This document shows positions 14,336 to 14,498 of a stretch of DNA of 64,000 bases, in pieces (position 1 is the first letter of the stretch; the number at the start of each line of letters is the position of its first letter). The stretch is from Streptomyces sp. SCSIO 75703 (GTDB lineage: Bacteria; Actinomycetota; Actinomycetes; Streptomycetales; Streptomycetaceae). Below the pieces are notes generated by a model. The model worked only from the letters and a program-made list of their open reading frames with translations, was not told the origin of the DNA and did not search any database. Where the stretch lies: the NCBI RefSeq assembly GCF_036607905.1, contig NZ_CP144555.1, positions 3,534,001-3,598,000 of the forward strand. Direction: 5' to 3'. The position numbers and the translations under genes were made by a program.

Positions 14336-14498
14336 GGAGCTCGGAGCACCGGGCTGAGAGGGCGCTGACCTCCGTCCCAGCGACGTTTCACATGAAACAT
14401 CACCGAAGACGAGTGATGTTTCACACGAAGCGCCGGCGGACGGAAGCCGCTGCGTCGACCGCCGAACCTGTTACCGGGTAATGCCGGCGTAGGGAGCT
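14336..14498 (+). promoter_or_regulatory. TPP riboswitch (THI element) of thiC
   Basis: The conserved strings are all present: GGGCTGAGAGGG (14351-14362), GAACCTGTTACCGGGTAATG (14464-14483) and GGCGTAGGGAG. P1 can form from AGCTC (14338-14342) and GAGCT (14494-14498). The P3 arm is long: TCCGTC (~14371) and GACGGA (~14440) close a ~65-base extension containing parS-like sequence. The ribosome site of thiC (GGGAG, 14492-14496) lies inside the 3' conserved part. Binding of thiamin pyrophosphate would therefore sequester it directly and stop translation. Confidence 0.93.
14385..14431. other. parS: two parS-like motifs inside the riboswitch P3 arm
   Basis: 14385-14398 reads GTTTCACATGAAAC (one mismatch to parS). 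14418-14431 reads GTTTCACACGAAGC (three mismatches). Together they form an 11-bp inverted repeat, TGAAACATCAC / GTGATGTTTCA, with a 9-base loop. The hairpin fits as the tip of the variable P3 extension, so the insertion need not harm ligand binding. ParB binding to these degenerate copies is unproven. Confidence 0.6.

Follow-up and report, generated by a model that had tools for sequence, protein, structure and literature searches.

A parS-like site in the optional P3a arm of a Streptomyces thiC riboswitch: probable dual use as DNA and RNA

The parS site has the consensus GTTTCACGTGAAAC, against which mismatches are counted here. Streptomyces ParB and its sites have been treated in several papers (PMC12207404, PMC12511625, PMC4852455 and PMC5157956, each cited for its available portions), and 23 central parS sites plus one near an end are given for S. 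coelicolor, and 16 for S. venezuelae (PMC4852455). In thiamine pyrophosphate (TPP) riboswitches, P3a is an optional stem between the UGAGA motif and P2, recorded as present in 552 cases and absent from 355, and is predicted to stack on P2 (available text of PMC2258182). The available text of two of the ParB papers (PMC12207404 and PMC12511625) does not mention thiC. No described case of a parS within a riboswitch was found among the matches listed for parS or ParB with riboswitch or thiC, subscription papers lying outside the scope, and this agrees with the initial annotation of the locus, which knew of none. The first list of S. coelicolor parS sites may include a site before thiC, with no remark on a riboswitch.

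The thiC leader and its P3a arm

The window, meaning the whole stretch of 64,000 nucleotides that was analysed, is an oriC-proximal segment of a Streptomyces chromosome of 6.89 Mb (G000:C1:3534001-3598000), the genus being indicated by the named relatives of its thiC, and the features of its thiC locus are listed in Table 1. The Rfam model RF00059 was aligned to the thiC leader by cmscan over its complete length (model positions 1-105) with 37.2 bits and an E value of 7.4e-6. P2 to P5 and the CUGAGA box are present over the whole model, P1 is poorly paired in the Rfam alignment, and the leader belongs to a thiamine gene, the thiC ORF beginning at 14506. The score is below the curated gathering cut-off of 54.3, which is a search cut-off and not a defining trait of a TPP riboswitch, and a scan of the window at default cut-offs returned no match. 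The initial annotation had called the riboswitch core intact, which is borne out by the full-length alignment with its 86-nt insert at a variable helix. It had also placed the parS-like DNA in the P3 arm, which has to be corrected: in the Rfam alignment the insert helix lies between UGAGA and the 3' strand of P2, so that the carrier is the optional P3a (naming of PMC2258182, available text). From the position of AGGGAG in the 3' end of the aptamer, 9 nt before the ATG, TPP probably controls thiC by hiding the ribosome site. A second parS-bearing thiC leader, from G123 (G123:C1:4363089-4363179), scored 23.4 bits against RF00059, likewise below 54.3, and one relative's thiC leader without parS also scored below it (47.1 bits); parS-bearing thiC riboswitches may be missed by annotation pipelines.

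Table 1 Features of the thiC locus in the window (positions are those of the window)
Feature	Position	Strand	Basis
TPP riboswitch (THI element) of thiC, with 86-nt insert 14366-14451	14323..14512	+	cmscan RF00059
P2 5' strand, partner 14459-14462	14333..14336	+	Rfam alignment
P3 hairpin of aptamer	14339..14354	+	Rfam alignment
Conserved CUGAGA box	14354..14359	+	Rfam alignment, sequence
Extended optional P3a arm with parS-like sites	14360..14456	+	Rfam alignment (86-nt insert); folding
parS1, GTTTCACATGAAAC, one mismatch to the parS consensus; proposed ParB loading site	14385..14398	.	Sequence; genus conservation
5' arm of 11-bp P3a tip helix, TGAAACATCAC, pairs with 14413-14423	14393..14403	+	Sequence, MFE fold
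3' arm of 11-bp P3a tip helix, GTGATGTTTCA	14413..14423	+	Sequence, MFE fold
parS2, GTTTCACACGAAGC, three mismatches; proposed to pair with parS1 as its mirror copy, 33 bp further along	14418..14431	.	Sequence; drift
AGGGAG, probable Shine-Dalgarno in conserved 3' end of aptamer, 9 nt 5' of ATG	14491..14496	+	Sequence; role inferred
thiC, phosphomethylpyrimidine synthase	14506..16344	+	ORF; NCBIfam NF006763 982.5 bits, TIGR00190 698.6 bits, both above cut-off

The window contains nine sites with up to three mismatches to parS, against 0.64 expected. With its single mismatch, parS1 is as close to the consensus as sites of the origin cluster are (0-1 mismatch), and it stands 107 bp upstream of the ATG in what is presumably transcribed as leader; the second copy, with three mismatches, is further from the consensus than those sites. 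The arm had been described initially as two parS-like sequences forming an 11-bp hairpin. The hairpin is found both in the sequence, between the two arms listed in Table 1, and in the minimum free energy (MFE) fold; as to the two sites, the description holds for the first copy, and the second is degenerate, its likelier role in this genome being to pair with the first rather than to bind ParB as well. Folding of the leader, proposed in the initial annotation as a check, placed the hairpin in the MFE structure with a z score of -3.4 relative to shuffles (-4.4 for the P3a arm alone), though this ligand-free structure lacks the canonical P2. In the window, a fold constrained to contain P2 to P5 is 6.7 kcal/mol less stable and has the same P3a arm, so the insert would be compatible with the aptamer provided that TPP pays the folding price. 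The corresponding cost was 2.6-4.6 kcal/mol in three other parS-bearing leaders and 1.9-3.2 kcal/mol in three leaders without parS.

Occurrence of parS in thiC leaders and in the origin cluster

An even sample of the genus comprised 199 genomes, of which 198 had thiC and 197 gave readable leaders; left out were G073 (no thiC match), L280/G197 (thiC in two pieces) and the second thiC matches of some genomes. The best site in the arm had no mismatch in 12 leaders, one in 78, and two or three in none, and 107 leaders had no site within three mismatches. The initial annotation had proposed aligning the thiC leaders of relatives and had regarded absence of the motif there as evidence against it; a parS with 0-1 mismatch is present in the P3a arm of 90 of the 197, so that this comparison does not refute the reading. 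Outside the arm, no site with up to one mismatch was found within up to 550 bases around each thiC start in these 197 leaders. When the 197 arms were shuffled in 50 rounds, no row reached one mismatch or fewer, and two mismatches were reached by 0.06 rows per round. Among leaders of named Streptomyces species, 18 of 31 carry the parS (for example S. antibioticus, S. flaveus and S. murinus), and those of S. cirratus and S. avidinii are without it; some of these 31 leaders come from species also present among the 197, and the pooled sets of 108 parS-bearing and 228 total rows hold near-duplicates. An exact single parS is kept in a separate small group (L026, L202, L204, L236, L238, L239, L240 and L247), and in L093 copy 1 has decayed with several changes together and copy 2 is parS. 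Neither the riboswitch nor segregation needs a parS at this place, 107 of the 197 leaders doing without. A class-wide pattern search matched 4 of 394 genomes, all of the window's genus; 40 of the 394 belonged to this genus, which was the only one sampled from its family, and the pattern describes single-copy arms only and misses this genome (G000). One Kitasatospora leader was examined (L031) and has no site within three mismatches.

Two counts on co-occurring mismatches are partly circular, the rows having been selected at one mismatch or fewer: no row of 108 has two mismatches, against 18% expected, and the two commonest parS1 changes occur together in none of 73 rows (Pagel p 1e-6). What holds apart from this is the count in the genus sample: among its 197 leaders, none has a best site with two or three mismatches.

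All 22 sites with up to one mismatch in this genome lie at 3.40-3.70 Mb of the 6.89 Mb, the site in the thiC leader being at 3548385. The genes parB (3503161; TIGR00180, 207.5 bits) and dnaA (3495674-3497458) lie amid this parS cluster, and parS1 of the thiC leader is about 50 kb from dnaA. In each of six further genomes, three with parS in the leader (G067, G009 and G123) and three without (G165, G005 and G066), the sites with up to one mismatch lie in one stretch of 180-420 kb on one contig, this clustering having been determined without reference to the origin. An exact parS is rare in the P3a arm (14 of 108 rows) and makes up 73 of 91 sites elsewhere in the origin cluster (G000, G123, G009 and G067). 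The changes A11G, T9G and G8A of the P3a sites are also seen at other clustered sites. Given the off-consensus letters, ParB may bind the P3a sites more weakly.

By a crude rule of G+C content by codon position, nine of the 22 clustered sites of this genome fall within ORFs and 13 are intergenic (the thiC site included), eight of the latter having converging genes on either side. Nine stretches around clustered sites outside the window were searched with Rfam at curated cut-offs, and nothing but tRNAs was found. Inside the window, where the scan at default cut-offs gave no match, weak RNA matches may still be present at the other parS-like sites. Two tandem tRNA genes on the minus strand (L289:1180-1352, G000:C1 about 3702779-3702951) are separated by a 24-nt spacer that contains an exact parS (L289:1259-1272), which may make it the second parS here to fall within an RNA transcription unit. 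Two adjoining ORFs (L284:1134-3616, G000:C1 about 3501533-3504015) hold three exact parS sites, one in the ORF with the ParB match and two in its neighbour. Two sites with two mismatches are found far from the cluster, at G000:C1:6579233 and 3942584, and one of them is a perfect palindrome, GTTCCACGTGGAAC, inside an ORF by the crude gene call.

On a thiC tree of 229 rows at least six changes of parS state are required. A single origin by descent with thiC was considered and discarded: an approximately unbiased (AU) test on 53 rows, picked from the 229-row tree after it had been viewed, rejected a single clade of the 25 parS-bearing rows (p 3e-11), and did so also when L019 was removed (24 rows, p 1.4e-4). 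The bases flanking parS are alike by eye across the separate groups, so repeated gain, loss and transfer of the leader are all candidate histories of the trait, and convergence is not claimed.

Drift and pairing in one-copy and two-copy arms

Among parS-bearing leaders, spans of 74-85 nt (CTGAGA to GAACCTG) mostly hold one parS, which is itself the tip of the hairpin, and spans of 94-111 nt mostly hold a second, more or less decayed copy. In 73 two-copy rows the spacing between copies is 33 bp in 46 and 21 bp in 17, near whole turns of DNA; the second copy was taken as the best 14-mer lying 16-37 bp on with up to six mismatches (1-5 were found), with L019, L093, L140, L211 and L277 excluded. 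In 47 two-copy leaders of equal span, parsimony assigned 20 changes to parS1 and 47 to parS2 (p 0.0013 if changes are independent). Ten of the 14 parS1 columns are unchanged in these leaders, and 19 of the 20 parS1 changes lie in the right half-site.

For 96 of the 108 parS-bearing rows, the predicted fold of the arm is one hairpin. Pairing in the register of the tip helix was found for 67% of cells, against 28-47% when the register was slid by one to four; the outer stem is out of this register, yet is paired in the folds shown. The letter G at parS1 position 11 occurs with C at parS2 position 4 in 24 rows and without it in 18, against 3 and 28 rows for other letters (Fisher 2.6e-5; Pagel p 0.0073, or about 0.02 counting the three partner pairs tested). 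The two other partner pairs, parS1 G9 with parS2 C6 and parS1 C4 with parS2 G11, each gave a Pagel p of 0.29, and four non-partner control pairs gave 0.043, 0.06, 0.13 and 0.25. In a test on independent pairs within the 47 rows, 2.69 of 4 supported pairs of the partner columns changed the same way, and seven control columns ranged from 0.00 to 2.63, four pairs being too few to reach 0.05. The A11G form is found in 58 of 108 rows and its mirror T4C in 3, in rows that are related; counted as changes in the 47 rows the figures are 8 and 1. Wobble pairing would favour A11G over T4C and is only part of the explanation, leaving unexplained the like bias of G8A over its own mirror. Selection at the RNA level for pairing of the two copies is modestly supported.

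Interpretation and comparison with known systems

The stretch is probably dual-coded, acting as a ParB loading site when DNA and as the P3a stem when RNA. As DNA, parS1 would be loaded by ParB as one of the 22 parS-like sites of the origin cluster, building the segregation complex. In the transcript, these bases would make up the long P3a, an optional helix of the thiC TPP aptamer, stacked on P2. The two uses would be compatible because parS is a palindrome and folds into a hairpin. In single-copy leaders the lone palindrome would fold into the hairpin tip, and in two-copy leaders, as here, the complementary copies would fold into one long stem. Selection would hold one copy as parS and leave the other freer as DNA, perhaps kept as a helix partner, and P3a could thus take up parS with the ligand-binding core untouched. 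Binding of ParB here, sensing of TPP, and the coexistence of the two with no mutual regulation are inferred. Judged from the sequence comparisons, retention of parS by selection as a DNA site is strongly indicated, and the dual use put forward in the initial annotation appears supported, with comparative evidence that is strong for the DNA site and modest for the RNA pairing.

The dual-coded reading has to be weighed against explanations that drop one of the two layers. That the sequence matters only as DNA, parS sitting in a tolerated insert and the pairing being a by-product of two palindromes with no selection on RNA, is conceivable, if doubtful: palindromes pair by construction, the covariation is modest with one non-partner column doing as well in the independent pairs, and the 107 leaders whose arms lack parS, many of them short, manage without it. 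Such a reading does not account for the association of parS1 G11 with parS2 C4 (Pagel p 0.0073) in a copy that departs from parS, for the 58 rows with A11G against 3 with T4C at a palindromic site that should ignore orientation, or for the folding of 96 of 108 arms as one hairpin. The reverse, a hairpin conserved only as RNA for its structure or for contact with a protein, with its likeness to parS having no role as DNA, is highly improbable. The P3a arm of the window does fold better than shuffles (z -4.4) and arms pair more in register than out of it. Pairing alone, however, predicts equal drift of the two copies, against the 20 and 47 changes counted; nor would it lead one to expect that best sites with two or three mismatches are missing from all 197 leaders, that sites with up to one mismatch in each of seven genomes fall inside one stretch of 180-420 kb, or that L093 keeps its parS in the other arm. 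Chance likeness to parS has next to no probability and nothing was found in its favour, with 90 of 197 leaders carrying the site and no shuffled row at one mismatch or fewer. A chance hairpin was likewise considered and is ruled out by the arm shuffles and the genus sample.

An explanation that keeps both layers and adds cross-talk between them, ParB on the P3a DNA repressing or pacing thiC as a roadblock and transcription clearing ParB, thereby coupling thiamine supply to segregation, is unlikely. The position of the site would suit it, 107 bp ahead of the thiC ATG in what is presumably the transcribed leader; by analogy, ParB of P. aeruginosa at the intergenic sites parS3 and parS4 represses adjacent genes (available text of PMC5521831 and PMC7022226), and the arm sites are off consensus (14 of 108 exact, against 73 of 91 elsewhere), as though they had been adjusted to a lower affinity. 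Against this, genes adjoining parS in B. subtilis are unchanged without Spo0J (PMC7022226, available text), and a lowered affinity as a rule is at odds with the eight rows of a separate group, each of which has one exact parS. Its fuller form, in which the thiC leader would be a two-layer switch, with ParB on the P3a DNA throttling transcription, transcription clearing ParB, and a weakened double parS tuned for linking segregation to thiamine supply, is quite improbable.

Under the dual-coded reading, bases that serve as a centromere-like site in the DNA would also belong to a metabolite sensor in the RNA, in almost half of the leaders sampled from the genus. The locus illustrates a way for a structured RNA to accommodate a palindromic protein site and offers a clean system for asking whether loading of ParB disturbs transcription, and the parS insert is an added reason for such thiC riboswitches to score below the Rfam cut-off. 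The leader resembles the TPP riboswitch RF00059 in its aptamer core, its place before thiC and a P3a between UGAGA and P2 (available text of PMC2258182), and is unlike it in that P3a holds a candidate protein-DNA site and in scoring below that cut-off. With the chromosomal parS of Streptomyces (ParABS) it shares the 14-bp palindrome, the origin-proximal cluster and an encoded parB; unlike that system, the site lies inside a riboswitch helix, is mostly off consensus and is often accompanied by a mirror copy 33 or 21 bp away. As at the intragenic parS1 and parS2 of P. aeruginosa (available text of PMC5521831), the bases of parS double as another functional sequence, but in P. aeruginosa this is coding sequence, whereas the parS of the thiC leader shares its bases with a structured regulatory RNA.
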